Shown in pieces: positions 18 to 21,593 of a stretch of 22,226 nucleotides of DNA; positions within the stretch are counted from its first letter, which is position 1, and every line of letters begins with the position of its first letter. The position numbers and the translations under genes are program-made. Below the pieces are notes generated by a model. It was not told the origin of the DNA. It saw only the letters and a list, made by a program, of their open reading frames with translations, and searched no databases. Origin of the DNA: a virus; IMG/VR virus record IMGVR_UViG_3300028025_003716, positions 1 to 22,226 of that record; one strand, given 5' to 3'.

Positions 18-272
18 ATGTCTGTAAAAAGATTAGTCCCCTTACATGCAGTAGCATTAGACGATAATCCCGTTTCTGCCAGAATTGGCGATATATATTA
101 CAATACTGCAGATGAAGAACTAAGATATTTTGACGGCACCGACTGGAATCCAGTTGGAAGCGGAGCTATCACAGGACTTCTCGATCATATTCATACTTAT
201 GATGGAGCAATTTTTTCTGTTGAGTCTACTGAAGTTCCAGCTTCTGGAGTTATTGATGGCGGGACAGCATAA
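18..272 (+). CDS. Small fibre-associated virion protein with a GD-Y/W module
   Basis: This 84-residue protein probably belongs to the tail fibre or appendage set. Residues about 22-47 match the short aromatic module common in phage fibre proteins (GDIYYNT...LRYFDGTDW), in which a Gly-Asp, an aromatic strand and a final 'DGTxW' recur. Related copies lie in the proteins at 4328, 7341 and 10971. The start is well supported by a strong Shine-Dalgarno sequence (AAGGAGGG, bases 5-12) five bases before the ATG. Its TAA overlaps the ATG of the next fibre gene by one base (TAATG), so the two are probably translationally coupled. It has no signal peptide or membrane segment. The precise function is unknown; a role as a small fibre subunit or fibre connector is inferred from the module and the neighbour. 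Confidence 0.75.
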   Translation: MSVKRLVPLHAVALDDNPVSARIGDIYYNTADEELRYFDGTDWNPVGSGAITGLLDHIHTYDGAIFSVESTEVPASGVIDGGTA

Positions 273-1927
273 TGTCAGTTACAATAAGAGTAAAAAGAGG
301 AACTGCTACGCAATGGGCAGCACGTACAACAGCGTTATTATCTGGTGAAATTGGCTACGACTTAACAAATAAAATAACTAAAATCGGAGATGGAACAACC
401 CTATGGGCCAGTCTTCCTTCTATCGATTCTTCTGGTGGCAGTAATACTGGAGATATTACATTCGATGGTGTACGGGTTATTGGTGCTGGAACAGCATCTG
501 GAGATGGTTACGGACTAGGAACATTAGAGCTTGTGCCAGATGGAGATATTACTTCAGATCAGTATTTAATTATTGATCCTACAGCTCCAAACCACATTCA
601 TATTCGTGGTGGTGGAACTCAAGATGCTTCAGGTGCAGATTTATTTATTGGTGGAGAAAGAAATAATGTTCGTGTATCTGACGGAGCAAGATCTGTATAT
701 ATTAGTACAAGACCAGAAACAATTATTAACACTTATACAAATTTAAACGAAACAAGCAACACTTCTTTTGTAGTTAGCAATACAGCAAATATTTATGTAG
801 GCGATACAATGTTTTATCCAGGCGGAGATATAGTCACTGTTGATTCTGTTACAACAGACTCACCAAGTGCTGGTCTACAAACTATTACAGCAAATTTAAA
901 TGGAGAACCAGCATCATTTGTTGGAGGAGCAGCTCATGTATTTAGTCATGAAGAGTTTTGGGATAATTACTGGCAATTCGGGTCAGATGGAGTTTTACAT
1001 GGTCCAGGAGGTGGGACACTAATTGTTTCTGGAATTAGTGGAGAGCCAGGAGATGATGTATTTGCTATTGTTGCAGATCAGAACCTAGTATTACAACATG
1101 GCGTAGGTGGAGCATACTTAAATGATTCAACCATTGCAAACAATCATATTGCAACTATGGGAGATATTGCAGATGCAAATGATTATACAGATACAGCAAT
1201 AACATCTCTTGGAAATACTGTAGACGGTGCATATGTTCCTATCTCAGACGTTGGAAATGCAGGTGGAGTTGCATCTTTAGATATAAATGGCAAAATTCCA
1301 TTATCAGAGCTAGGTAATTTAATTGACGGTGCCCCAACAGCGCTTGACACCCTGAATGAATTAGCAGCAGCCATAAATGATGATGCTTCATATGCTGCTA
1401 CAATTACAACAGCTTTAGGAAATAAGCTAGACTCCAACTATGTAACTATAGGAAACACGCTGCTTGAAGGAATAAGTGGGCAAACATACGGACTTATTGG
1501 AACATCTACTTATTTAGATGTTAAAAATACTAATGGATACAATAAAGAAATTGAGTTAGATATAGCAGCAGTAAAATCACAACTAGATACAGACGGATAT
1601 ATTAAGCAGGCTGCACTAGATGCTAAATCAGATAAAATAATTTCAATATCATCTAAGTCATCATCATATACATTGCAACCTACTGATATAGGAACACTTA
1701 TTGAAATGTCTGACGGAGGTACTGTAACTATTACAGACTCTGCATCATTTCCAGTTGGATTCTATGCAGATATTCTGCAAACTGGATCAACACAAGTATC
1801 TGTTGCAGGAAATGGTTTTACCTTAAATGGTACTCCTGGATTAAAGTTGCGTAATCAATGGAGCAGCGCAACTGTTATAAAACGAGCTTTGAATGTATGG
1901 GTTCTTGTCGGCGATTTGAGCGCTTAA
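272..1927 (+). CDS. Tail fibre / receptor-binding protein with Mtd-like N-terminal domain
   Basis: This 551-residue modular fibre protein probably acts in host-surface recognition. Residues about 1-50 (IRVKRGTATQW...LLSGEIGYD...KIGDGTTLW) match the N-terminal domain of the Bordetella phage major tropism determinant and similar fibres. Residues about 65-145 carry a beta module (LELVPDG, PNHIHIRGGGTQ, ADLFIGGE, VRVSDG) that I recognise from many environmental phage structural proteins. Residues about 305-390 hold a 'YVPISDVGNAGGVASLD' block followed by a 'NLIDGAPTALDTLNELAAAI' block; both recur in the 4328 protein in the opposite order. Residues about 455-551 form a C-terminal beta domain ending VLVGDLSA. 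The start overlaps the upstream stop by one base. There is no reverse transcriptase nearby, so nothing shows that this protein is diversified as Mtd is. Confidence 0.85.
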   Translation: MSVTIRVKRGTATQWAARTTALLSGEIGYDLTNKITKIGDGTTLWASLPSIDSSGGSNTGDITFDGVRVIGAGTASGDGYGLGTLELVPDGDITSDQYLIIDPTAPNHIHIRGGGTQDASGADLFIGGERNNVRVSDGARSVYISTRPETIINTYTNLNETSNTSFVVSNTANIYVGDTMFYPGGDIVTVDSVTTDSPSAGLQTITANLNGEPASFVGGAAHVFSHEEFWDNYWQFGSDGVLHGPGGGTLIVSGISGEPGDDVFAIVADQNLVLQHGVGGAYLNDSTIANNHIATMGDIADANDYTDTAITSLGNTVDGAYVPISDVGNAGGVASLDINGKIPLSELGNLIDGAPTALDTLNELAAAINDDASYAATITTALGNKLDSNYVTIGNTLLEGISGQTYGLIGTSTYLDVKNTNGYNKEIELDIAAVKSQLDTDGYIKQAALDAKSDKIISISSKSSSYTLQPTDIGTLIEMSDGGTVTITDSASFPVGFYADILQTGSTQVSVAGNGFTLNGTPGLKLRNQWSSATVIKRALNVWVLVGDLSA

Positions 1928-1928
1928 C

Positions 1929-3623
1929 ATGCGTAAGAAATTAGGCAGATTCGGTCTTAGAAAAGTAACTGTTCCAAATCTATCTGGATTAACAAGATCA
2001 CAAGCCCAGTCTTTGCTTTCATCACTAGGTCTTAATTATTCGGAATCTACAACAAATACCTCAACCTTAGCATTAACAGATAGCATTGCTTCACAAGGTT
2101 CTGCTCATAGTTCTACCGTTTCCATCGGAAGCACAGTTCCATTTGTGTATTATAATTATGTCGATCCAGTAGTAATAACCTATGGCCCATGTGAGTCATA
2201 TGGTACACCAACCACCATAGGATCTGGAACTCAATGCTCTGGTGAATTTTATGAAGAATATACTGATTATAGATACAATACAAGAAAAAAGATTTATTCA
2301 GACGGAGTCTGGGATGGTTTTTCATATACAACATCTGGATGCGGCACAACAGATTCTAGAATAGTATCAACTAGTGTAAAAGTAAATGGTCAATGTGGAT
2401 ATGTAACTCCACCCGTAATAACATATGGTCCATGCGAAACTTATGGATCTGGTACAGTAATTGGAAGCGGCAACCAGTGTTCTGGAACATACTATCAGCA
2501 ATATACTGATTATAGATATAACACTAGAAAAAAGATTTATTCAGATGGAGTGTGGGACGGAACTTCTTATAGTACATCTGGATGCGGTACATCTGATTCA
2601 AGAGAAATAACATCGAGCTCTCAAATAGACGGATCATGTGGATACACAGCACCTTGTTCAATTACTTCATATTCTGGGTGGGATTATTCTGGAATTACGT
2701 GGAGCGGTAATTGCGTTTCTAGCGTAGAAGCAGGAACTGCAACATCTAGAAGTAGAACAGATAATTGCGGAAATACTTATAACGAAAGTGGTAGCTATTC
2801 TGTTAGTAGATCATGTACCCCTCCAGCCACAATAACTTATGGGCCATGTGAGGCATATGGAAGCGGGACCAATGTTGGAAGCGGCAGTCAGTGTTCTGGA
2901 ACCTATTATCAAACATATACAGACTACATATATAATACACGCAAACAAATTTATGTTAACGGATCTTGGGATGGGTCATCCTACACAACATCAGGTTGTG
3001 GAACAACTACATCTAGGTCAATAACTGAAAGCTCTCAAGTAGAGGGATTATGTGGGTATACAAATCCCATAACTTACGGTCCATGCGAAGCCTACGGCAG
3101 TGGTACAAACGTTGGTTCTGGATTCCAATGCAGTGGAACATACTATCAAAATTATACTGACTATGTTTACAACTCTCGGAAAAAAATTTATGTAAATGGA
3201 TCATGGGATGGCAGTTCTTATACCACTTCAGGATGCGGCACAGTAACAGAGCGTTCGATTAACAGCTCAAGTCAAGTAGATGGTACTTGCGGATATACAG
3301 CACCTGCACCAGCAGCTCAGTGGTATTGCACAACATCTATTAATGGCGGTGGAGTAGGAAATTGTGAATATACCATGCCTGGCTATAACAACTCAGCAAG
3401 CGGCAGCGGATATAGTAGGCAATGCGTTTTTGGATACGCTTATCCAGGATGCCAGTCTACAAATCCAGTACCAGTATGCACATCTTATAAATATAACTGC
3501 AAATCTTATGACGTAACAAATTCTGCAAGTAATAATTATTATCAATGCTACGGAGTTGGAGATTGTACAGCTAATAATAACTCAGATGGATCTAGAACTA
3601 CATGTTGTGCATCTTATGGATAA
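1929..3623 (+). CDS. PASTA-domain virion protein with four cysteine-rich repeats
   Basis: This 564-residue protein is probably exposed on the virion. Residues about 12-78 match a PASTA domain (VTVPNLSGLTRSQAQSLL...LGL, ending in a strand near SIGSTVPFVYY), a fold known to bind muropeptides in Gram-positive kinases and penicillin-binding proteins. Four repeats of about 80 residues follow, starting at residues 83, 164, 302 and 381 with ITYGPCE. Each has four cysteines (GPCE, QCSG, SGCG, a final CGY) and a conserved TDYxYNxRKxIY...WDG core. An extra insert with four cysteines lies between repeats 2 and 3. The last 100 residues carry ten further cysteines, including a terminal CC pair. Translation probably couples to the previous gene, whose stop lies one base upstream; I see no strong Shine-Dalgarno site. 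I do not recognise the repeat family. Cell-wall or glycan binding is inferred from PASTA and the fibre neighbours. Confidence 0.8.
   Translation: MRKKLGRFGLRKVTVPNLSGLTRSQAQSLLSSLGLNYSESTTNTSTLALTDSIASQGSAHSSTVSIGSTVPFVYYNYVDPVVITYGPCESYGTPTTIGSGTQCSGEFYEEYTDYRYNTRKKIYSDGVWDGFSYTTSGCGTTDSRIVSTSVKVNGQCGYVTPPVITYGPCETYGSGTVIGSGNQCSGTYYQQYTDYRYNTRKKIYSDGVWDGTSYSTSGCGTSDSREITSSSQIDGSCGYTAPCSITSYSGWDYSGITWSGNCVSSVEAGTATSRSRTDNCGNTYNESGSYSVSRSCTPPATITYGPCEAYGSGTNVGSGSQCSGTYYQTYTDYIYNTRKQIYVNGSWDGSSYTTSGCGTTTSRSITESSQVEGLCGYTNPITYGPCEAYGSGTNVGSGFQCSGTYYQNYTDYVYNSRKKIYVNGSWDGSSYTTSGCGTVTERSINSSSQVDGTCGYTAPAPAAQWYCTTSINGGGVGNCEYTMPGYNNSASGSGYSRQCVFGYAYPGCQSTNPVPVCTSYKYNCKSYDVTNSASNNYYQCYGVGDCTANNNSDGSRTTCCASYG
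2175..3305 (+). repeat. Four copies of a cysteine-rich ~80-codon repeat
   Basis: Copies begin at 2175, 2418, 2832 and 3069. The first, second and fourth span about 237-243 bases. The second is followed by an unrelated insert of about 60 codons before copy three. Copies 3 and 4 are the closest pair at protein level (both GPCEAYGSGTNVGSG and IYVNGSWDGSSYTTSGCG). Copies 1 and 2 share YRYNTRKKIYSDGVWDG. Synonymous bases differ between copies, so the duplications are not very recent, or the copies have been held at protein level. Confidence 0.85.
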
Positions 3624-3665: not shown

Positions 3666-4049
3666 ATGATTAATTTACAAGAAGAAGACTGGTTTATTCC
3701 AGGAGTCAAGCAGACAAAGGTGGACTTAGGAGAATCTGCAAAACAGGTAGCTGTAGTAATTGATGGTGAGATAGCTTTTTTTATTGGGGTTAGACAAGAT
3801 ATTGCTGATGCCTTAATAGGCGCAACAACCTTTTCTGAATGCGAACCAGCCAATGGTCTTTTTTGTGTATCTTTTATTAAAGATGGTGCGACAGATCAGA
3901 TTCTTTGCAATGAAATGACTCAGGCGGCATTGCTATCTAATCCAGAATTAGTTTATGTAGATAAAGAAGTTCAAAGGCATGCAGAATTAGCAGAGGCTGG
4001 TTGGCTATATGTAGATGGCCAGTTTATAGTTCCAGGGGTATATGAATGA
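3666..4049 (+). CDS. Hypothetical phage protein, 127 residues
   Basis: I do not recognise a family. The protein is acidic, with a short beta-like core (VAVVIDGEIAFFIGV, residues about 28-42) followed by a helical stretch (QDIADALIG) and a C-terminus rich in hydrophobic turns (GWLYVDGQFIVPG). There is no signal peptide or membrane helix. It follows a near-consensus promoter whose -10 box is six bases from the ATG. The only SD-like bases (AAAAGG) lie about 12 bases from the ATG and overlap the promoter, so leaderless translation is likely. Its TGA overlaps the ATG of the next gene (ATGA, 4046-4049), so the two genes form a coupled pair. The position between two fibre genes suggests a virion-assembly or accessory role, but nothing in the sequence proves it. 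Confidence 0.7.
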   Translation: MINLQEEDWFIPGVKQTKVDLGESAKQVAVVIDGEIAFFIGVRQDIADALIGATTFSECEPANGLFCVSFIKDGATDQILCNEMTQAALLSNPELVYVDKEVQRHAELAEAGWLYVDGQFIVPGVYE

Positions 4050-4282
4050 CCGAAAAAAGTAAATGGCAGCAGTATAAAGAAAAGTTGGGGGATACCAGAC
4101 CATGGGATCTTCTTAATCCAAATACTGAGTATGCTGAAGATACAGAAGCGGATAGAAGATATGATATCTGTAAATCCTGTCCAGAGCTTATAGATTTAAC
4201 AAAGCAATGTAAGCAATGTGGCTGTATTATGTCATTAAAAACCAAGCTTCAGCATGCCACCTGCCCACTAGGAAAATGGTAA
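4046..4282 (+). CDS. Small probable zinc-binding phage protein
   Basis: This 78-residue protein has a charged N-terminus (KWQQYKEKLGDTRPWDLLNP) and a cysteine-rich C-terminal half: C42-x2-C45, C55-x2-C58-x-C60 and C73. Pairs of CxxC spaced about ten residues apart suggest one structural zinc ribbon. I recall similar short proteins (WDLLNP ... YDICxSCPEL ... CKxCGC ... CPLGKW) in T4-like and other environmental phages, without a known function. It is translated from an ATGA overlap with the upstream gene. It could be an assembly factor, a small nucleic-acid-binding protein or a minor virion component. The zinc site is read from the cysteine spacing. The function is unknown. Confidence 0.75.
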   Translation: MTEKSKWQQYKEKLGDTRPWDLLNPNTEYAEDTEADRRYDICKSCPELIDLTKQCKQCGCIMSLKTKLQHATCPLGKW

Positions 4283-4327: not shown

Positions 4328-7246
4328 ATGGCAATAAATTTCCCAACTAGTTTGGATTCCTTGACTAATCCCCAGGGAACCGACTCCGTCCAAGCAGTCT
4401 CGCATGCTGCACAGCATGCTGATGCCAATGACGCTATCGAAGCACTTGAAGCTAAAGTCGGTGCCGATAATTCGACTGTCACAACGTCCCTTGATTATAG
4501 AGTAAATGCCCTTGAAAATGCATCACTAGATGAAGAGGGTATTCAGCAAATAGCCGCTGATCTTTTAACAAATGGCACACATACAAATATAGTCGTCACA
4601 TATGATGACGCTAATGATAAGATAAATTTAGAAGCAACCTATGGCGATGAAGAGGCAATAGATGCTATTGCTACTGCATTAACTACTGGAACTGGAATAA
4701 CTAAGACCTATACTCAAAATCCACCCAACTATATTGGTGATTATGATAACGGAGCATATTACAGTTTAAATGATGTTGTAAGCATTCCAACAGGAAGCCC
4801 ATATGGAGCTCCTGGAGAGTTTTATATTAGAAGTGGTAACCCAGGAAACCCTGGATATCCACCAGGAACTCTAAGTAGCTGGACACCATATGTATTTTCT
4901 CCAACTATCACAATTGCAGTAGATACCAATGCTATTGCCACACAGTCTTATGTAACAACTGCAATATCTAATTTAATAGACTCTTCTCCCGCTCTTTTAA
5001 ATACACTTAATGAAATTGCTGCAGCCATTGGCAATGATGCAAATTTTGCAACAACTATAACAAATGCCTTGGCTCTCAAAGCCCCACTTGCCAGCCCAGC
5101 TTTAACTGGAACACCAACAGCACCAACTGCTACAACTGGAACAAATACTACACAAATAGCAACTACAGCATTTGTTAAGACCGCTGCAGATGGCGCAGTT
5201 ACAGCAGCAAATGAATACACAGATGAAGCAGTAGCAAGCCTTGGAGATAGTTTACCAAACACATATGTTCCAATTTCAGATGTTGGAAATGCTGGAGGAG
5301 TTGCTTCTTTAGGATTAGACGGCAAAGTTCCATCTACCGAGCTAGATATCGATTCAACAATTCAATCAGTAGCATCTACAATGATTACAGGCGGAACTCA
5401 TACAAATCTTTCTGTTACATATGATAGCGTAACTAAAAAATTAAACTTTACAGCAGAAGCAGGAGGAGGAGCTAATGTTAGTATTTCTTCTAACCCTCCC
5501 TCATCTCCAAACGCTGGAGATCTTTGGCTAGATTCAGATACAGCAACTCTATATGCATATGACGGCGGATTCTGGCTAGAAGTATCTGGCAGTGGAGGCG
5601 GAGGAACATCTGGTGGTGGAAGCTTTATACTTTCAGTAACAGCACCAACATCTCCAACAGAAGGCGACACTTGGTTTGATACAGAAAACGGAAAACTATA
5701 TGTTTACTATGATTCTTATTGGGTTGAAGCAATTGCAACAGGTGCAACTGGTCCAACAGGACCAATGTTCTTGGATTACCAAGGTTTATGGAGTTCTGGA
5801 GTAGGATATCTTGAAAATGAAGGCGTAACTTATAACGGAAGTCTCTGGAGATTAAATGCTACAAGCAGTCCAGCAGGCACAGTTCCATCTACACCAAATT
5901 GGCAACAAGTTATTCAAAAGGGTGATAAGGGAGATACTGGAGAACTAGTTGTAGGAACAGTTACAACTGTAACTCATGGTAATTCAGCAACTGTAACAAA
6001 TGCTGGAACCTCAACAGATGCAATATTAAATTTTGTAATACCTGCAGGTCCTGCAGCAACAATAGCAGTAGGAGATGTAGATACAGTTCTTTATGGAAAC
6101 CCTTTAACTGTAACAAACAGTGGAACTACTAGTTCTGCCGTCTTTGATTTTGAAATACCAGCAGGCAGAGCGGCTACTATTTCAGTAGGATCTGTCGATG
6201 ATGTTCTTTATGGACAGCCACCAACAGTAACAAATTCTGGAAACACCAGCGATGCCACATTTGATTTTGAAATCCCTGCAGGTCGTGCAGCCACCCTTGC
6301 AGTCGGGACAGTTACAACTGTATTAGACGGAGAACCAGCAACAGTAGTAAATTCTGGCGATACAAGCGACGCAGTATTTGATTTTGAAATTCCAGCGGGC
6401 CCAAGGTCTACTATTACAATTGGAACAGTTGACGATGTTGATTTTGGAACGGCTCCAACAGTAACAAATAGCGGAACAACAAGCGATGCCATATTTGATT
6501 TTGAACTCACAACAGGTAGAGCATCAACTCTTGCAGTAGGAACTGTAACAACAGGCTCATATGCTTCAAGCGCAACAGTTACAAATGCTGGAACATCCAG
6601 CGATGCAGTATTTAATTTTTCAATACCACAAGGTATACCTGGAGACTTCCAGCCTGGAGAAACACCACCAGCAAATCCATTAGCAGGACAAGTTTGGTAT
6701 AACACAGCATCTGGAAGAGCCTATGTTTATCATGATTCTTTCTGGGTAGAATTTTCACCAGGATTTGTAGGACAGCCAGGAGCAACAGGCCCAGCGGGAG
6801 CAAATGGTGCAGACGGAGAATCAGCATCAGATTTAAATCCCTGGACTTCATATACTCCAACTATTACTGCAGATGGTGGCGGATTTTCAATTGGTAACGG
6901 ATCAATTACTGGTCGATATAAGCAGATTGGAAAAACAGTTTTTTTTCACGCAAAACTAATATATGGCTCTACTACTAATCCAGGATCTGGACACTGGAAT
7001 TTTGGACTGCCAGTTACTGCACAGAATTCTAATTTTCAATTTTCAGCCTCAATTCTTGACGACGGCATTTCATGGTATGGTGCAGTTGGAAATGGAAACT
7101 ATACTGGATCAACCACCTCATTTGCAGTTATCACTCCATCACCAACCTCTTCATCAACTGCGTGGGTTGGAGTCGGAAATGGTGGCCCCTTTATTTGGGG
7201 GAATGCGGATAATATCACAATTTCAGGAAGCTATGAGTCAGCTTAA
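4328..7246 (+). CDS. Large modular tail fibre protein with collagen-like and 39-residue repeats
   Basis: A 972-residue fibre. The N-terminus (INFPTSLDSLTNPQGTDS...HAAQHADANDAIEALEAKVG) is a common phage fibre attachment region. Carbohydrate-binding-like modules occur near residues 135-190 (IGDYDNGAYYSLNDVV) and 480-535 (YQGLWSSGVGYLENEGV). Middle blocks include NLIDSSPALLNTLNEIAAAI and SPALTGTPTAPTATTGTNTT, a classic phage fibre repeat, then YVPISDVGNAGGVASL. Three aromatic GD/GQ-W modules (DLWLDS, DTWFDT, QVWYNT) flank a short GATGPTGP collagen-like piece at residue 472 and the six 39-residue repeats (residues 539-772). A second collagen-like run (GQPGATGPAGANGADG) is at residues 815-830. 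Residues about 837-972 form a C-terminal beta domain. Its length and multi-domain stalk suggest a long trimeric fibre. Receptor specificity cannot be read from the sequence. Confidence 0.85.
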   Translation: MAINFPTSLDSLTNPQGTDSVQAVSHAAQHADANDAIEALEAKVGADNSTVTTSLDYRVNALENASLDEEGIQQIAADLLTNGTHTNIVVTYDDANDKINLEATYGDEEAIDAIATALTTGTGITKTYTQNPPNYIGDYDNGAYYSLNDVVSIPTGSPYGAPGEFYIRSGNPGNPGYPPGTLSSWTPYVFSPTITIAVDTNAIATQSYVTTAISNLIDSSPALLNTLNEIAAAIGNDANFATTITNALALKAPLASPALTGTPTAPTATTGTNTTQIATTAFVKTAADGAVTAANEYTDEAVASLGDSLPNTYVPISDVGNAGGVASLGLDGKVPSTELDIDSTIQSVASTMITGGTHTNLSVTYDSVTKKLNFTAEAGGGANVSISSNPPSSPNAGDLWLDSDTATLYAYDGGFWLEVSGSGGGGTSGGGSFILSVTAPTSPTEGDTWFDTENGKLYVYYDSYWVEAIATGATGPTGPMFLDYQGLWSSGVGYLENEGVTYNGSLWRLNATSSPAGTVPSTPNWQQVIQKGDKGDTGELVVGTVTTVTHGNSATVTNAGTSTDAILNFVIPAGPAATIAVGDVDTVLYGNPLTVTNSGTTSSAVFDFEIPAGRAATISVGSVDDVLYGQPPTVTNSGNTSDATFDFEIPAGRAATLAVGTVTTVLDGEPATVVNSGDTSDAVFDFEIPAGPRSTITIGTVDDVDFGTAPTVTNSGTTSDAIFDFELTTGRASTLAVGTVTTGSYASSATVTNAGTSSDAVFNFSIPQGIPGDFQPGETPPANPLAGQVWYNTASGRAYVYHDSFWVEFSPGFVGQPGATGPAGANGADGESASDLNPWTSYTPTITADGGGFSIGNGSITGRYKQIGKTVFFHAKLIYGSTTNPGSGHWNFGLPVTAQNSNFQFSASILDDGISWYGAVGNGNYTGSTTSFAVITPSPTSSSTAWVGVGNGGPFIWGNADNITISGSYESA
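5942..6643 (+). repeat. Six exact-length 39-codon repeats in the fibre stalk
   Basis: Six consecutive units of 117 bases (702 bases in total), with no insertion or deletion between units. The unit pattern is xxxVGxVxxVxxGxxxTVTNxGTxSDAxFDFxIPAGxxA. It is a known kind of phage fibre repeat that links to collagen-like segments. Units 2, 3, 4 and 5 share 'FDFE'. Units 4 and 6 share LAVGTVTT. The nucleotide copies have diverged at synonymous sites while keeping exact length. Confidence 0.9.
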
Positions 7247-9971: not shown

Positions 9972-10964
9972 ATGCCATTTATTAGTAGCGTAAGATCTAG
10001 CTATGGAACATCAGGTAGAAAAAAATCTTCATCTGCTAAAGGAAGACTACTTGCTGCCCTTGCCACTTCGGATAAAACATTTTCTCCTGGAACAGTACAA
10101 ATAGTAGACCTGCGTGGATATTTTGGATCTTCTGACACCATAACAGTTTTTGCTAAAGGTGGAAATGGTGGAGATTCTGGAGCTCGTGGTGGCTATGGAA
10201 CATTCTTGCAAGGAACTGTTCCAATTAGTCAATTAGCTGGAAAACAAATAGCTTTTATAAGTGGTAGTAATGGAACAAATGGTCCAGGCGGTAGAGGTTC
10301 TGGAGCTGGTGGTGGATTTTCTGGAATTGTAGTATTAGATAATTTAGATTCGTTTAAAACTATAGCACATATTGCATCAGCAGCTGGCGCTGGCGGAGCA
10401 TCAGGTCCAGGAGATTCTGGAAGCCCATCTCAAGGATATGATACATCTAATATTGTTTATTCTGGAAGTCCAACTGGAGGTAGTGGTGGAACTGCTAGAG
10501 ATTCAGGCGGATCACAAGGAACTTATCCTAGCATTTCTTTTGCAGCAAGACCAGGTAACGCATGGGGTGGAGGAGACTCCTGCAGCGATGTAAATGGTAC
10601 TGACAATTTTGCAAGCGGAAGCGGTGGAGGATTTGGATATTTAGCAGGTAACTCACCAGCAGATACAAGTGGTCCAGGAGTTAGAGGCGGAAATAGTCCA
10701 GCTAATCCATACTCGTCTATATTTTCTGGTGGTTTTGGTGGGGGTGGAGCATCTACTGGTGGCGGAAGCGGTGGACTTTCATGGAGAACACAATCAGGTG
10801 GCGGTGGCGGTGGAGGATTTAATGGAGGAAATGGAGGTAGCTACATAGGTGACGAACAGCCAAGCCCAGGATTTGCAGGGACTTCATTTTGGTTTAATAG
10901 TGCAAATGTAATTACACATTCTCCAGCAAATTCTGGATCACCGTATCTAAGGGTAGTGTTATAA
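9972..10964 (+). CDS. Glycine-rich putative adhesin / fibre-tip protein, cassette copy 1
   Basis: A 330-residue protein. It opens with MPFISSVRSSYGTSGRKK, which matches the opening of the protein at 15430 (MPFTSSARGAYGPQGKK) position by position, although the bodies differ. Residues about 40-110 look like a beta-stranded entry domain. The remainder is dominated by glycine runs (GGNGGDSGARGGYG, GGGFGYLAG, GGGASTGGGSGG, GGGGGGGFNGGNGGS). Such glycine-rich tips can fold as polyglycine-II bundles, as shown for the Salmonella phage S16 gp38 adhesin. That comparison is structural inference, not detected homology. A strong Shine-Dalgarno site (AAAAGGAGA) precedes the ATG. Its position straight after a long fibre mirrors gp37-gp38. 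The promoter for the next gene lies across its stop codon. Confidence 0.75.
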   Translation: MPFISSVRSSYGTSGRKKSSSAKGRLLAALATSDKTFSPGTVQIVDLRGYFGSSDTITVFAKGGNGGDSGARGGYGTFLQGTVPISQLAGKQIAFISGSNGTNGPGGRGSGAGGGFSGIVVLDNLDSFKTIAHIASAAGAGGASGPGDSGSPSQGYDTSNIVYSGSPTGGSGGTARDSGGSQGTYPSISFAARPGNAWGGGDSCSDVNGTDNFASGSGGGFGYLAGNSPADTSGPGVRGGNSPANPYSSIFSGGFGGGGASTGGGSGGLSWRTQSGGGGGGGFNGGNGGSYIGDEQPSPGFAGTSFWFNSANVITHSPANSGSPYLRVVL

Positions 10965-15429: not shown

Positions 15430-16584
15430 ATGCCATTTACAAGTAGCGCAAGAGGTGCTTACGGCCCACAAGGTAAAAAAGTAATTAAGGGACCACTTGC
15501 TCCTGTATGGGCTACATTTTCGCCCCCAGCATCTTCGGGCCCTTATTCTTATCAGTTTGTTGCAACAGATGATTCTGGCGATGCACCAACATATTCTTTA
15601 GCAAGCGGTTCAATTCCAACGGGAACAACACTTTCCAGTTCTGGTCTTTTATCAGGAACATGTACTTCTGCAGGAACATTTACTTTTTCGGTAAGAGCAA
15701 CAGACGTTAATGGAAGATTTACAGATACAGGTAATTTATCTATAGTTGTTACTTTAAGATCTCCAGCTACATACACGCAATCTCAAGCCCTTTCTTTAAC
15801 ATCTTATGTGGTTGGAGACGTAATTACATTTCCATATACAGGAAACTCTCAGCAATTTAATAGATATAACGCTACAAACTTTAACGTTTCGTTAAGAGGT
15901 GCTGGAGGCGGAGATGGAGATAACTCTTCTAGAGGATCCCGTGGAGCCTTGGCTGCTGGAAATGTTGTTTCTAACTTGCAGTCAACTTACTGGGTATTTA
16001 TTGGTGGAACTGGTACAACAAATAGCACAAATGGAGGCGGCGGAGCTGCAGGATACAATGGCGGAGGACAAGCCTACGATTCTGGAAACCCAAGTTGGTC
16101 CATCGCTGGGTCTAGTGGAGGTTCAGACATTAGATTGACAAACGGTGCCTGGAATGATGGAACAAGTTTAAATTCAAGAATTTTAGTTGCTGGTGGTGGT
16201 GCTTCAGCTTCACGAAACGGAGGCAGTGGCACAGCTGGCGAAGGAGGGTACCCAAGTGGAGGAAATGGAACTGACGGCGGAGGCGGCGGAGCAGGAGGAC
16301 AAGGCGGAGGACAAGGCGGTGGCGGTGGCAGCGTAGGAAGCTCCAGCTTTGCGGGAGGGTTTGGTTATGGCGGAGGCTATAACGGAAGCTATAATGTTTT
16401 GGGTGGATCAGGCGGAGGTGGATGGTATGGCGGTAGCTCTGGAGCATTTCACATGGGCAATGGCGGAGGAGGATCATCTTACTATAATTCTAGCTACGTA
16501 AACAACTGGACACACACAAACGGCTCACGAGGAGTTGGTCGTGAAAATGGAAGTGGTACCATTACCATAGTTGCTGTTTCTTAA
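15430..16584 (+). CDS. Glycine-rich putative adhesin with Ig-like domain, cassette copy 2
   Basis: A 384-residue protein. It opens with MPFTSSARGAYGPQGKK, shared with the 9972 protein. Residues 25-110 match the putative Ig (He_PIG) fold seen in surface proteins (YSLASGSIPTGTTLSSSGLLSG...FTFSVRATDVNG). Residues about 150-375 form a glycine-rich domain with the pattern known from ALK/LTK-type glycine-rich regions (GGSDIRL...SLNSRILVAGGGASA, residues 230-260), then dense glycine (residues about 281-305). Polyglycine-II helices are a plausible fold. A strong ribosome-binding site (AAAGGAG) precedes the ATG, 12 bases after the fibre stop. The arrangement repeats that of 7707/9972, so this is probably the tip or receptor-binding subunit of the 1021-residue fibre. 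The Ig-like insert is absent from the first copy. Confidence 0.75.
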   Translation: MPFTSSARGAYGPQGKKVIKGPLAPVWATFSPPASSGPYSYQFVATDDSGDAPTYSLASGSIPTGTTLSSSGLLSGTCTSAGTFTFSVRATDVNGRFTDTGNLSIVVTLRSPATYTQSQALSLTSYVVGDVITFPYTGNSQQFNRYNATNFNVSLRGAGGGDGDNSSRGSRGALAAGNVVSNLQSTYWVFIGGTGTTNSTNGGGGAAGYNGGGQAYDSGNPSWSIAGSSGGSDIRLTNGAWNDGTSLNSRILVAGGGASASRNGGSGTAGEGGYPSGGNGTDGGGGGAGGQGGGQGGGGGSVGSSSFAGGFGYGGGYNGSYNVLGGSGGGGWYGGSSGAFHMGNGGGGSSYYNSSYVNNWTHTNGSRGVGRENGSGTITIVAVS

Positions 16585-16610: not shown

Positions 16611-17078
16611 ATGGATTTAAAAAACTCAATTAGTAATTCTATTGTTAACAAAACACCTTTATTGATACCAGCATTTTCTTTTAATACACCTCCATGGGAC
16701 CATTTTTTAACACACTTATTTTCAACTAAGCAAGAAAAAATTTTATCTACAATCGATTTGTTAGTTCCCTCTTTAGAAGAATTTCCGCATCCATACCGAG
16801 ATGTAGTAGTATTAAACGACCTTTATTCATTTTTAATTGGTTCAAGTAATATAGATATACAGTCTAACATATACTTGTCCCCCAGCGTAAAAGAAGCAGA
16901 TGACTATGAGCATACAAAGTTAATCTGGCAATGCGTTGGGTCTTTAAAGATTACATTTAAAGAAAATTTTAAAATAATTATAAGTAAACATTCTGATTTA
17001 ATAGTAATCCCAAAAGGAATAGAATATAGCATAGAACCAATAGACGCTTCTGCAACAGTAACGTTTAGATATAACTAA
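16611..17078 (+). CDS. Degenerate JmjC/cupin-like protein, probably non-catalytic
   Basis: A 155-residue protein, soluble by sequence. Residues 86-141 follow the layout of the JmjC/cupin core: a NIYLSPS strand, an aromatic turn ending YEHTKL (99-104), then a VGSLKITF strand, and SDLIVIPKGIEYSI (128-141), which resembles the 'GD-hyLPxGxxH' strand. In active oxygenases the first part is HxD/E and the last ends in His. Here H101 is followed by T102-K103, and the distal His is replaced (E138/Y139). The metal triad therefore looks lost, suggesting a structural or ligand-binding cupin. The N-terminal WDHFLTHLF also fits these families. The gene lies in a markedly AT-rich two-gene island between fibre and lectin genes. 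The family call is by eye and moderate at best; no function is proposed beyond a possible binding role. Confidence 0.55.
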   Translation: MDLKNSISNSIVNKTPLLIPAFSFNTPPWDHFLTHLFSTKQEKILSTIDLLVPSLEEFPHPYRDVVVLNDLYSFLIGSSNIDIQSNIYLSPSVKEADDYEHTKLIWQCVGSLKITFKENFKIIISKHSDLIVIPKGIEYSIEPIDASATVTFRYN

Positions 17079-17091
17079 AAAGGATTATAAA

Positions 17092-17811
17092 ATGAAAGAC
17101 TCTCCAAAAATTGAATTTATTTCAATGATAAAAGGATTAACATCTATTTCAGAATGTTTACCAAAACCTGCTTCATCATTTATACCTAAATGGTGGAAAA
17201 ATACACCTCCTGAAAGTAATGGTGTAAGTACAATAAAAATGTGCCCAGCGTACCCAGATTATTTTTCAGAAGGCTTTATTCTGCCAATGTGGACAGATGT
17301 TAAATTAAAATTTAATAAAGAAACTGGAGATTGGAACTGGGAAACAAGGAGTCAAGAAAATCCATTTTTATTTGACGTGCACTACAACTCACAGCTAATT
17401 GATCACAAAGTTCCCACTTATCAGGGAGAAGATGGAAAGTTTGTTTTTAAATTTATTTCACCTTGGAAAATAATTACTCCACCAGGATACTCTGTTTTAC
17501 AACTACCTCCATTTTATCATTTTAATAAAGATTTTAGTGTCGCACCTGGAATTTTGCACACAGACATATATCATTCTACAAATCAACAAATTTTTTATCA
17601 TTCTTCTGAAAAAGAAATTGTAATTGAGCGGGGAGCCCCTTTAGTACACTATATTCCATATAAAAGAAAAGAATATAGTCTAGAGGTTAGGGAGTATACA
17701 GCTGAAGACGAACAAAAAATAAGGTCTGAAGATTTATCAATTGTAACTAAATTAAATGGCTCTGGGTGGTTTAAAAAGTTTAAGAAGACACACCCTTATC
17801 ACCAGAAATAA
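17092..17811 (+). CDS. Conserved uncharacterised phage protein, ~240 residues
   Basis: A 239-residue protein. It resembles a family I recall from marine and freshwater phages that has no function known to me. Hallmarks visible here are PKPASSFIPKWWKN (25-38), CPAYPDYFSEGFILPMW (51-67), a tryptophan-rich hairpin (GDWNWE), FDVHYNSQ (94-101), SPWKIITPPGYSVLQLPPFY (123-142), GILHTDIYHSTNQQIFYH (153-170) and GAPLVHYIPYKRK (181-193). H156-T-D158 followed by H161 and H170 would suit a metal site of the HxD...H type, but this is unproven. A clear ribosome-binding site (AAAAAGGAT) precedes the ATG, 13 bases after the cupin-like gene, so the two are probably one unit. Base composition is far lower in G+C than in the flanking genes. 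It could be an accessory gene acquired as a pair. Confidence 0.65.
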   Translation: MKDSPKIEFISMIKGLTSISECLPKPASSFIPKWWKNTPPESNGVSTIKMCPAYPDYFSEGFILPMWTDVKLKFNKETGDWNWETRSQENPFLFDVHYNSQLIDHKVPTYQGEDGKFVFKFISPWKIITPPGYSVLQLPPFYHFNKDFSVAPGILHTDIYHSTNQQIFYHSSEKEIVIERGAPLVHYIPYKRKEYSLEVREYTAEDEQKIRSEDLSIVTKLNGSGWFKKFKKTHPYHQK

Positions 17812-17856: not shown

Positions 17857-19608
17857 ATGTCCTATCAATTAAAAGTAATCAAAGACTACCCTATTGGCTT
17901 CTGGCCGTTGGATGAGTCTTCTGGTACCACTGCCTCTGATATTTCAGGGTGTGGAAATAATGCCACATATGTAGGTTCTCCTGCAGCAAATATGCTGCCA
18001 ATTATTCCAGGCGGAGGATCAGGAACTAAGATAACCGATACCTCTTATATAACAGTACCAACATCAAAAGACTTTTATGGCTCATCTGTTTCAAATGGCC
18101 TTGCAAATAAATACTCCTCAGACAATGACTTCACATTAGAGTTATGGGTCAGCCCATCTATTCAGTCATCAAATATCACAACTCTTTTTGCAGACACTAC
18201 AGATGGTATCGGATTATATTGGGAAAAGGGAGATGTTATATTTAAAATTTCTTCCACTGAACAAATTAGGTGGGCAGTAACATATAGCAAAAAGGCTATG
18301 CATATCGTAGGAGTATATTCTGTAGACTCTATTAAATTATTTATAGATGGCAGACAAGTAGCGGCTAAATCTATAGACTCTACATTTAAATTTACTAACA
18401 CAACCCTAGATCTACAAATTGGTCCAACATCTGATTCAGGAGATTCATTTATTGTAGATGCTCCAGCAGTATATCGATATGGACTAAAAAATGCATCTAT
18501 CTCTAAGCATTACAGCGATGCCAACTTTTATATCCAGCCTATACATGTAGTCCATCCAGAAGATGGGCAATTGTTTTCATGCTCAGAGGTTAACAACAGA
18601 GTCGATCTTGAATACTCATATGGCGTATCTAAGTCATGGGAGGACCTCATTGAGTCAGACGAAAATGTTTACTATGATCAACAAGGAAGATATCTATCGT
18701 TCTTTAGCACAACTACAGCAACTCCACTCAGCTTTGTAATTAACGACTTCTTATTTATTCCTACGGAATCAGGGCTTACAGATTCTAAAATTGAATGGCG
18801 AAATGATTTAGGAGTTTCTGTAGAAACTAGCGTAGACGGAACTAGTTATGTTTCTTGTGAAAATGGGCAGGCAATTCCACAGTACAGCGTAAATTCATTT
18901 AATACAAGCGGTGTCCTATATATCAGAATTACAATGAGCACATCAGATGCTAGCAAATTCCTTCCAAGGTTATCTTTATTTAATATTAGATTCTATAGGG
19001 AGTCAATTGTATATTCAGACAATTCTCCAAATACAATTACCTCAGACAATCAAATTAACGTCGGAGCAGTAAATTACTCCCCACTTGTCAGACATTATAA
19101 CAATGGAATTCGAACAGAGTCTGGATATGGATTTGATATCAATACTGGATTAAACATAAATACAGTAGAGATGTTTTTTACTCCTAAAACAACTGGAGCA
19201 AATACTTTATTCTATGATCCGACTACCAGCACCAAGTATGCCTGGAATGGGTCTGGAACGGTCTCCAAGGCCTCTATAAGCAAAGTTTACGTTAATGGGG
19301 TAGATAAGACCTCACAGACCAATATAAGCAATTTCCTGGTGGCTGGAGAGCCCCATCACATAGTTCTAGTATTCTCTGCGCCAGTAACTGGATCCCTTCA
19401 ATTTAATTATCAAACTTCAGGCGGTCCAGATAACCTATATAACAATATCGCTATATACAATAGAACATTAACCGAAGCAGATGTAGACACCCACTTTGAT
19501 TTATATTGTGGAAGACCTGCTGTTTCAGTCTCAGATCCTGCTATTCAGATGACAGAATCTACCCCAGTATATTATGATAATGACTGGATTGTGCTTCAAA
19601 GTATCTAA
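17857..19608 (+). CDS. LamG-like lectin-domain virion protein
   Basis: A 583-residue protein. Residues 11-222 form a concanavalin A-like/LamG domain: the opening YPIGFWPLDESSGTTASDISG motif of the Laminin_G_3 type, then FTLELWVSP, a glycine-ended strand set and SIKLFIDGRQV. Residues about 415-555 form a second, more diverged LamG-like domain (GYGFDINTGLNINTVEMFFTP, VYVNGVDKT, PHHIVLVFSA, YNNIAIYNRTLTEADV). The region between has beta strands with no named family. Such domains bind glycans or act as structural beta-sandwiches in phage tails and baseplates. The gene is expected to have a leaderless mRNA from the promoter six bases upstream. It is the last appendage-type gene before the head module, so it may be a baseplate, tail-tip or capsid-decorating lectin. 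Confidence 0.8.
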   Translation: MSYQLKVIKDYPIGFWPLDESSGTTASDISGCGNNATYVGSPAANMLPIIPGGGSGTKITDTSYITVPTSKDFYGSSVSNGLANKYSSDNDFTLELWVSPSIQSSNITTLFADTTDGIGLYWEKGDVIFKISSTEQIRWAVTYSKKAMHIVGVYSVDSIKLFIDGRQVAAKSIDSTFKFTNTTLDLQIGPTSDSGDSFIVDAPAVYRYGLKNASISKHYSDANFYIQPIHVVHPEDGQLFSCSEVNNRVDLEYSYGVSKSWEDLIESDENVYYDQQGRYLSFFSTTTATPLSFVINDFLFIPTESGLTDSKIEWRNDLGVSVETSVDGTSYVSCENGQAIPQYSVNSFNTSGVLYIRITMSTSDASKFLPRLSLFNIRFYRESIVYSDNSPNTITSDNQINVGAVNYSPLVRHYNNGIRTESGYGFDINTGLNINTVEMFFTPKTTGANTLFYDPTTSTKYAWNGSGTVSKASISKVYVNGVDKTSQTNISNFLVAGEPHHIVLVFSAPVTGSLQFNYQTSGGPDNLYNNIAIYNRTLTEADVDTHFDLYCGRPAVSVSDPAIQMTESTPVYYDNDWIVLQSI

Positions 19609-19610
19609 AG

Positions 19611-19629
19611 TTGTCATCTTCTGTGACAA
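19611..19629. repeat. Inverted repeat immediately upstream of the head-module promoter
   Basis: TTGTCA and TGACAA (19611-19616 and 19624-19629) are perfect inverted copies around a 7-base loop. They lie two bases after the lectin-gene stop and end five bases before the -35 box at 19635. The stem is short and has no U-tract (A residues follow), so an operator is more likely than an intrinsic terminator. Confidence 0.4.
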
Positions 19630-19634
19630 AAAGC

Positions 19635-19663
19635 TGGACTTAAACCATAAAGAATGGTAAAAT
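19635..19663 (+). promoter_or_regulatory. Sigma70-like promoter of the head module, probably leaderless
   Basis: TGGACT (19635-19640), 17-base spacer, TAAAAT (19658-19663), then eight bases to the ATG at 19672. There is no Shine-Dalgarno site before the ATG. It would drive the small gene at 19672 and the overlapping portal gene. Confidence 0.55.
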
Positions 19664-19671
19664 AAAACTCT

Positions 19672-20013
19672 ATGGATATCAATAAGATTAATACACAAGT
19701 TCTCGAAGAGGAATCAACTCTTGGGATATATGTCTGGGAAATGCCAGATGGTCGCTGGATTGGCGATGATGAAGGAAACTACTTGTCTATTACTTCTAAG
19801 AAGAATAATAAATCAAGAATTGAAGCCCTTGCAAAAGAGGTCAGAAACTTTGGTATTTATGAAGGACAGCCTAAGTTTCTTAGTGCCCGCCGAAAGGTTA
19901 CAGATGAAGAGTTTGAAGAACAGCAGTCAAGGCTTAAGTGGGGTTTGGTTCCAGATCCACTAGATATTGGAAACTATAAAGACGAAGTTAAAAAATTGGG
20001 GAAGCTAACATGA
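19672..20013 (+). CDS. Small head-module protein before the portal, hypothetical
   Basis: A 113-residue charged protein with no recognised family. Residues about 18-40 (GIYVWEMPDGRWIGDDEGNYLS) form a beta-hairpin-like segment, followed by a basic helix (KKNNKSRIEALAKEVRNFG) and an acidic/basic C-terminus (RRKVTDEEFEEQQSRLKWGL). Its TGA overlaps the start of the portal gene (ATGA, 20010-20013), so the two are translationally coupled. In many phages the gene just before the portal encodes the terminase large subunit, but this protein is far too small and lacks Walker motifs. A portal-assembly partner or small head protein is the most likely role, from position alone. Confidence 0.7.
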   Translation: MDINKINTQVLEEESTLGIYVWEMPDGRWIGDDEGNYLSITSKKNNKSRIEALAKEVRNFGIYEGQPKFLSARRKVTDEEFEEQQSRLKWGLVPDPLDIGNYKDEVKKLGKLT

Positions 20014-21593
20014 TTAAATACGAAGAAGATGACAACTCACAAGATATATCAATTTCTAATGTAGCAGACTGGATGAAGTTTAATGCTCCAGTGGATACAA
20101 AAACAACTGACCCATTTAAAATTAGCGGAGATGATTTATCAAAAGTATCTGGACTAGGTGCAACATTTCGTCGCAAGATGAACCGTGATCTTCAAAAAAG
20201 ATTCCAGGGAATTGATGGAGCAGAAACTCAACAGAACCTGCTTGCACAAGCAATTACAGGCTATGCAATGTTTGACCTTATTGAACCTCCATATAACCTA
20301 GATTACCTTTCAACTATTTATGAAATTTCCCCATACAACTATTCAGCAATTAATGCTAAGGTTTCAAATATTGTTGGACTAGGCCATGACTTTATTGAGA
20401 CACGAAAGACTCAAGAAGCATTCGATAACATTTCAGATGACAAGGCCCTAGATCGTGCTCGCAGAAAGCTAAATAGACTTCGTCAAGATTTATATGAGTG
20501 GCTAGAGCAGTGCAACGAAGAAGAAACATTTACAGAAACACTTATTAAAGCATACACAGATGTTGAGGCTACAGGAAATGGATACCTAGAAATCGGTAGA
20601 ACATCTGCTGGCAAGATTGGATACATCGGTCATATTCCAGCAAAGACTATGCGTGTACGCCGATTGCGTGATGGCTTTATTCAATTGCTCTACGGCAAGG
20701 CCGTATATTTCCGCAACTTCGGAGATCAAGAGACACTAAATCCGATTGATGGCGGACTAGAGAGACCAAATGAGATTATTCATTTAAAGAAGTATACTCC
20801 AACAAATAACTATTATGGAATTCCAGACATTGTAGCTTCACAGAATGCTATGGCAGGAAATGAGTTTGCTGGCAAGTACAACCTTGATTACTTTGAGAAC
20901 AAGGCTGTTCCAAGATATATCATCACCGTAAAGGGTGCTAAATTATCAACAGAGTCAGAGCGTAAATTGCTTGAGTTTTTCCAGGTCGGGCTAAGAGGCA
21001 AGAATCATAGATCCCTATATATTCCTCTTCCTCCAGACTCACCAGACTCAAAGGTTGAATTTAAAATGGAGCCAATTGAGGCAGGAACTCAGGAATCTTC
21101 ATTTAACGTATATCGTAAATCTAATAGAGATGAAATTCTATTATCTCACCGTGTCCCAATTAATAAAATTGGAACTCCAGAAGGAGTCAATTTAGCGGTA
21201 GCAAGAGATGCCGATAAAACATTTAGAGAGCAAGTCTGTCGTCCAGCACAAATGAATTTAGAGAAAAAGCTAAATAAAATTATCGAAGAAATGACAGATG
21301 CCCTACTTTTGAAATTTAATGAGCTTACTTTGACCGATGAAGATACTCAGTCAAAGATTGATGAGCGTTATTTGAGAATGCAGGTAATTACTCCTAATGA
21401 AGTTCGTATTAGAATGGGAATGGTTCCAATTGACGGTGGAGATAAAGTCGTTCAATTAAAGCCACAGGACCAGGCAGAGTCTAGAGCACAGGCAGGAAAG
21501 ACCAGAACTAGAGATGCCGAAAGGTCTGCAAATTCTCCAGATATTTCTGGGGAGGGCAGAAATGCTCAGGGCGACGGAAGACAAGTCAACTGA
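20010..21593 (+). CDS. Phage portal protein, PBSX type
   Basis: A 527-residue protein forming the dodecameric channel at the capsid vertex through which DNA is packaged and to which the tail joins. It matches the PBSX-family portal pattern: a disordered acidic N-terminus, an EPPYNLDYLSTIYEISPYNY segment (about residues 92-111) with NAKVSNIVG, a helical clip/stem region (FTETLIKAYTDVEATGNGYLEIGR), HIPAKTMRVRR, a HLKKYTPTNNYYGIPDIVAS motif (about 259-278), and FRKSNRDEI-like and SHRVPINKIG elements followed by long helices. The C-terminal tail (residues 490-527) is polar and probably disordered. It begins inside the stop of the upstream gene (GGGGAAG ribosome-binding site) and is followed by the prohead protease after a 53-base gap with its own promoter. 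The terminase is not in this window. Confidence 0.9.
   Translation: MIKYEEDDNSQDISISNVADWMKFNAPVDTKTTDPFKISGDDLSKVSGLGATFRRKMNRDLQKRFQGIDGAETQQNLLAQAITGYAMFDLIEPPYNLDYLSTIYEISPYNYSAINAKVSNIVGLGHDFIETRKTQEAFDNISDDKALDRARRKLNRLRQDLYEWLEQCNEEETFTETLIKAYTDVEATGNGYLEIGRTSAGKIGYIGHIPAKTMRVRRLRDGFIQLLYGKAVYFRNFGDQETLNPIDGGLERPNEIIHLKKYTPTNNYYGIPDIVASQNAMAGNEFAGKYNLDYFENKAVPRYIITVKGAKLSTESERKLLEFFQVGLRGKNHRSLYIPLPPDSPDSKVEFKMEPIEAGTQESSFNVYRKSNRDEILLSHRVPINKIGTPEGVNLAVARDADKTFREQVCRPAQMNLEKKLNKIIEEMTDALLLKFNELTLTDEDTQSKIDERYLRMQVITPNEVRIRMGMVPIDGGDKVVQLKPQDQAESRAQAGKTRTRDAERSANSPDISGEGRNAQGDGRQVN

Follow-up and report, generated by a model that had tools for sequence, protein, structure and literature searches.

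A probable virion fibre joining a PASTA domain to four-cysteine repeats in uncultured phages related to the Stanwilliamsviridae

PASTA domains usually occur in host cell-wall proteins, and binding to peptidoglycan is not a property of every one of them. Cysteine-rich repeats that are probably stabilised by disulphides are characteristic of the extracellular proteins of eukaryotes; in phage fibres, to our knowledge, they have rarely been described. A literature search for papers describing PASTA in phage virions found none in the library searched. The domain is present in the kinases PknB and PrkC and in PBPs. PASTA kinases have been described as sensors of peptidoglycan fragments (PMC7286690). 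A phage tail rich in disulphides has a precedent in Agrobacterium phage Milano, where the virion is disulphide-crosslinked in the sheath and other contractile-tail components (PMC10811340). In Streptomyces phages of the Stanwilliamsviridae, such as CeilingFan and Muntaha, the gene order is ribonucleotide reductase (RNR), endolysin, gp46, gp47, and portal.

The window, which is the whole stretch of DNA that was analysed, is 22,226 nucleotides long (IMG/VR virus record IMGVR_UViG_3300028025_003716, positions 1 to 22,226). The open frame at 1929–3623 on the + strand encodes a protein of 564 aa, in which 30 cysteines were counted: the four repeats together hold 16, the insert 4, and the C-terminus 10. 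This is 5.3% of the residues, against 0.34% in the window's 19 other ORFs (22 cysteines in 6463 aa; Fisher P = 3e-20), as had been anticipated in the original prediction of 30 or more cysteines in a phage with few elsewhere. The ATG is 1 base past the upstream stop, there is no clear Shine-Dalgarno sequence, and translation is likely to be coupled to that of the upstream gene. The features of the region are as follows.

272..1927, + strand: upstream fibre gene, with an Mtd_N-type N-terminus and tail-fibre family matches
1929..3623, + strand: putative gene for a modular, cysteine-rich fibre (30 cysteines in 564 aa)
1965..2138, + strand: PASTA domain, residues 13–70 (Pfam PF03793, PDB profile matches, fold match Z 10.8)
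2178..2408, + strand: cysteine repeat 1, residues 84–160 (C-x14-C-x34-C-x17-C)
2421..2651, + strand: cysteine repeat 2, residues 165–241
2655..2825, + strand: insert module, residues 243–299 (57 aa, four cysteines)
2835..3065, + strand: cysteine repeat 3, residues 303–379
3072..3302, + strand: cysteine repeat 4, residues 382–458
3318..3620, + strand: C-terminal ten-cysteine module, residues 464–564
3666..4049, + strand: 127-aa partner gene, with homologues after the repeat carriers
4046..4282, + strand: 78-aa DUF6171-type Zn-ribbon-like protein (Pfam PF19668 above cut-off; phrog_13558)
17857..21593, + strand: genes for a 583-aa protein, a 113-aa protein, and the portal, with matches to CeilingFan gp46, gp47, and portal

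The N-terminus is short and basic (MRKKLGRFGLRK) ahead of the PASTA domain, and no hydrophobic signal stretch or signal peptide was seen in it. The PASTA assignment made in the original prediction holds. PF03793 matches residues 13–70 with E 4.1e-6 (27.1 bits against a cut-off of 23.2), and the PASTA-plus-repeat relatives that were scanned score 26.9–38.7 bits, also above the cut-off. A profile built from seven relatives picks out PASTA chains of known structure, from PrkC and PknB (best E 3.7e-6). The AlphaFold2 model of residues 10–80 has the PASTA fold, in which a helix packs against a small beta sheet. It superposes on solved PASTA domains with a best Z of 10.8 (69 residues, 1.9 Å rmsd), and these make up the top 11 rows of the structural alignment (Z 8.8–10.8), with the next row at Z 3.9. 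The PASTA part of the predicted structure has a pLDDT of 84–92 and is the best part of an otherwise poor full-length model (pLDDT 64.6, pTM 0.24), in which the tail falls below 50.

The four repeats are each 77 aa, or about 81 aa with the linker, in agreement with the ~80 residues first proposed, and carry their four cysteines at identical spacing. Between repeats, protein identity is 62–84% and DNA identity 60–69%, third codon positions are 31–51% identical, dS is saturated, and Tandem Repeats Finder detected nothing over the repeat region of 1929–3623. Since the protein identity exceeds the DNA identity and dS is saturated, the repeat is held by selection at the protein level and is not a recent duplication of DNA; on these comparisons the copies are either ancient or much recoded. 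Selection for recoded DNA as such was also considered for repeats 3 and 4, which have identical codons at 20 of 64 positions, fewer than random expectation (P 0.007–0.017), but this is one pair of six and is too weak.

In 21 repeats from eight proteins, the invariant residues are the four cysteines, Y2, G3, G43, W45, Y50, G71, and G74; the repeats were cut at cysteines, so that the number of cysteines is partly built in, while their spacing is not. In the repeat tree, in which several nodes are weakly supported, the repeats of the PASTA proteins cluster by position (first, second, last) more than by phage. This would mean that part of the array, at least, predates the split of these phages, and that units were lost or gained after it.

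When repeat 4 and its short flanks are folded alone, an all-beta model of four strands results (pLDDT 89.7, pTM 0.64). A fold search with the single-repeat model gave no PDB or viral matches at E ≤ 0.001, and a second structural alignment reached Z 3.6 at best, a score that marks the fold neither as new nor as known. There was nothing convincing for the repeat, insert, or tail in PHROGs, NCBIfam, or PDB sequences, so the architecture that had not been recognised from the sequence is likewise unmatched here, and the repeat family is undescribed in the libraries searched. The insert, repeat, and tail modules may share an origin, but pairwise scores are barely above those of shuffles (for the insert and repeat 3, 8 of 500 shuffles score as high) and profile comparison finds nothing.

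The number of cysteines is even in all seven PASTA-type proteins (22, 22, 22, 22, 28, 30, 30), and the 564-aa protein has one His and no CxxC. The even counts, the lack of CxxC, and the near absence of His favour disulphides over metal, and the cysteines would thus pair with one another. That they instead bind metal, the repeats being intracellular zinc fingers, is very improbable. The zf-C2HC_3 family (PF25017) does clear its threshold when the entire protein is scanned, with 27.1 bits against 24, and a neighbouring gene encodes a Zn-ribbon-like protein, but the best match lies at residues 416–440, a stretch of about 25 residues that holds a single Cys and lacks His, while single repeats reach E 0.1 at best and the relatives are below the cut-off. 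With no CxxC pairs and only a single His in 564 aa, the repeats are unlikely to hold zinc, and the setting, a cluster of fibre genes, also argues against it. The Pfam match looks spurious, and the repeats do not therefore fall into a known, unrelated intracellular family.

Relatives of the gene, with one to four repeats, are present on 16 other viral contigs. Six have the PASTA domain with repeats (L002, L003, L004, L007, L008, L009), two are C-terminal fragments (L027, the tail only; L028, a partial repeat and the tail), and eight carry one repeat with PASTA absent (L010, L017, L019, L020, L021, L072, L073, L074). These are counts of contigs, some of which are near-identical (L008/L009 and L019/L020 and, in the third group described below, L032/L033/L034/L039 and L043/L044/L045). 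L009 and L073 derive from one metagenome. The window and its relatives are all fragments of uncultured metagenomic viruses, and E-values from the locus search are relative to the candidates only. None of 50,697 phage records held a homologue of the cysteine fibre, and no relative was found in cultured phages or in plasmids; a tblastn search returned no rows even at E 10, which very remote relatives may escape. None was found in cellular genomes, where the second scan used N-terminal patterns only, so that the repeats may occur in bacteria.

Among the PASTA-type proteins the layout is one PASTA domain, two to four predicted beta-rich four-cysteine repeats, an optional insert, and the ten-cysteine C-terminus. 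The insert is restricted to the window, L004, L008, and L009. The PASTA sequences are 51–68% identical to that of the window, and the C-terminal part 67–86%. The same repeat and/or tail is carried on FN3/PKD-like proteins in L010, L017, L020, L021, and L072–L074, and the first ~54 aa of the ten-cysteine tail ('WYCT.S..GGG.GNC') constitute a module that other phage fibres carry in one to three copies. The sequences of these proteins show the C-terminal part to have been swapped between fibre N-termini that are otherwise unrelated.

A third group of long fibres (L032–L047), with up to 47 cysteines, has one to three tail modules, and most of its members end in a HINT-like part. These ends are HINT/intein-like and ~150 aa long in L032:3912-6101, L036:3429-5936, L038:3441-6563, L040:3438-6650, L041:3360-6035, L043:2862-6287, and L046:3438-6608, and the fibres concerned also contain Ig/FN3-like parts and proline-rich linkers. 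In the four that were scanned, Pfam Intein_splicing has E 0.002–0.06, below the cut-off. An autoprocessing domain terminating a fibre would be unusual.

The partner, a gene of 127–136 aa, is directly downstream of 14 of the 15 repeat carriers that have downstream DNA, in two genome positions. The partners of L072–L074 match the partner profile at E 1e-22 to 1e-24, though they were not used in building it. The exception is L017, where a 119-aa gene in the partner slot is unmatched by the profile. Fibres with the tail module only have a 76–78-aa gene in this slot. Homology of the 127-aa partner to the genes of 76 and 129 aa that take its place after other fibres was considered and rejected, the profile comparison being weak (probability 6–26%). 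Since the partner co-occurs with the C-terminal modules and not with a given N-terminus, this suggests that it acts on the C-terminal part of the fibre; from its position and size, it might be guessed to be a fibre chaperone, cap, or linker. The 78-aa Zn-ribbon-like gene shares 4 bases with the end of the partner gene and is kept after nearly all of these fibres, including those that have no repeats.

The gene lies among fibre genes, its neighbours having tail-fibre matches, and a homologue of 272..1927 is immediately upstream in the PASTA-type relatives. In L010 the carrier comes immediately behind two tail genes, one for a tail protein (phrog_9983) and one for a minor tail/baseplate-connector protein, so that the placing of the gene in a fibre or tail setting is upheld, and the 564-aa protein would be located in the virion. 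Elsewhere in the window, a 972-aa fibre gene contains a tandem 234-base repeat at 6143–6628 (2.1 copies, 73% match), with a period of about 39 aa in the protein. Two glycine-rich fibre-like proteins are encoded at 9972–10964 and 15430–16584, the latter matching PHROGs of unknown function. Two non-fibre genes are within the fibre cassette at 16611–17811, one for a 155-aa protein that matched nothing, the other for a 239-aa protein (phrog_7084, unknown function).

That the protein instead acts from the surface of the infected cell, or after its release at lysis, in superinfection exclusion or as a decoy, and is not part of the virion, is very improbable. In its favour, PASTA domains are normally on host cell-wall proteins, but the N-terminus has no signal peptide to be seen, the C-terminus is common to the L010 protein in a tail-gene cluster, and there are fibre genes on both flanks.

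Homologues of the Stanwilliamsviridae portal, protease, and gp46/gp47 are in order in the window, at 23–60% identity, in a genome that is incomplete. Identities to CeilingFan are 23% for gp46, 51% for gp47, and 60% for the portal, and the protease is 60% identical to those of Streptomyces phages of this family. The ribonucleotide reductase of L009 is 69% identical to that of CeilingFan. The window portal is 75–97% identical to the portals of contigs with related fibres, including a fragment in L010 at 97%, and a related contig of 110 kb, with a portal 75% identical to the window's, carries whiB, which has been described as an actinophage indicator (PMC10202952). The source is probably an uncultured actinophage related to the Stanwilliamsviridae. 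Because the portal, protease, and RNR are of this type, and whiB is in a related contig, the host is probably an actinobacterium, and the Gram-positive host of the original prediction is supported. As the L010 carrier lies after tail genes and the L010 portal fragment is 97% identical to the window's, the cysteine-rich C-terminus occupies two genome positions among phages that are close relatives.

The reading that we favour, at a probability of about 0.68, is that the gene product is a modular tail or side fibre in the virion of an actinophage, stabilised by disulphides and assisted by its partner, with the shared C-terminus facing the receptor or the assembly. The fibre protein would be made reduced, in the cytoplasm, where the partner may help to fold, cap, or attach its C-terminal part. 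After lysis, the cysteines would pair inside each small domain, giving a stiff, protease-resistant stalk. The exchangeable C-terminus would be the end that faces the receptor or assembly, while the N-terminal PASTA may join the fibre to the particle or add weak binding to the actinobacterial cell wall.

From the sequences, it is about equally likely that the PASTA domain binds peptidoglycan or that it only joins modules. As first proposed, the PASTA would grip the wall and the repeats would be a disulphide-stabilised spacer, which is somewhat unlikely. The PASTA fold is certain and the host is probably actinobacterial, but there is only one such domain, at the N-terminus, where most fibres face the virion, the domain is absent from fibres with the same C-terminus, and some PASTA domains do not bind peptidoglycan. 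The sensing of peptidoglycan fragments by PASTA kinases, as described in PMC7286690, also favours wall binding.

Five PASTA domains (Pfam E 6e-47), without cysteine repeats, are present in L057:3966-5720 and L058:3972-5726, where they follow an adaptor-like N-terminal part and precede a C-terminal domain that differs from that of the 564-aa protein and in L057 has matches among tail or minor tail proteins from Streptomyces phages. Two PASTA domains without cysteine repeats were also seen in L051, L053, and L054. The position of five PASTA domains in the middle of the L057 protein means that a structural spacer fits as well as wall binding. It is tentatively possible that the PASTA is a structural adaptor or spacer only and that the repeats and ten-cysteine C-terminus do all of the receptor binding, given L057 and L058 and the fact that the conserved, exchangeable part is C-terminal. 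The good conservation of the PASTA in the family might be held against this, but does not separate the two roles. Because of the single N-terminal PASTA, the PASTA-less fibres with the same C-terminus, and L057, peptidoglycan binding is the weakest step of the original prediction. The fuller proposal, that the repeat and ten-cysteine tip are a new disulphide-built phage adhesion family with a dedicated partner, swapped among fibres that uncultured actinophages encode at different genome positions, with the PASTA gripping actinobacterial peptidoglycan, is unlikely as a whole.

The family, with its one to four repeats, common C-terminal module, and partner gene, offers a handle on host recognition by uncultured actinophages. 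It also bears on how a protein from the reducing cytoplasm could gain many disulphides, and the repeat could act as a small, stable beta scaffold.

Two other repeat families were compared with the cysteine repeat. The G5 domains of HP0197 and Aap are beta repeats of fibrous surface proteins and align with the repeat model at Z 3.0, but the match is weak, level with unrelated folds, and G5 is not defined by cysteines. Properdin, a TSP1-repeat protein, is the top Foldseek match of the low-confidence full-length model, with E 1e-4 but a loose fit (rmsd 53 Å); the structure lists of the single-repeat model contain no TSP1, the TSP_1 profile (PF00090), with its W-x-x-W, CxxCG, and R-x-R motifs, has no match in the protein even at E 10, and a TSP1 repeat has six cysteines where the window repeat has four. 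In the fragment L048:2-700, TSP1-like segments (WSAWSACSGGTRSRTRTC; E 0.008, below cut-off) adjoin the tail module and long PFFP repeats, and the window repeat profile does not align with these segments.

The sequence family and fold of residues 10–80 are those of the PASTA domains in PknB/PrkC and PBPs, but the window protein has a single PASTA at its N-terminus, fused to cysteine repeats, is encoded by a phage, and is without a kinase, PBP, or membrane anchor. In Milano the disulphides crosslink the virion, whereas those of the window fibre would lie within the small repeats of one fibre. Unlike the Streptomyces phages, the relatives of the window have a long fibre cassette, containing the cysteine-rich fibre, between RNR and portal, and in L009 about 27 kb separates the end of the reductase match at 3556 from the start of the portal match at 30652.
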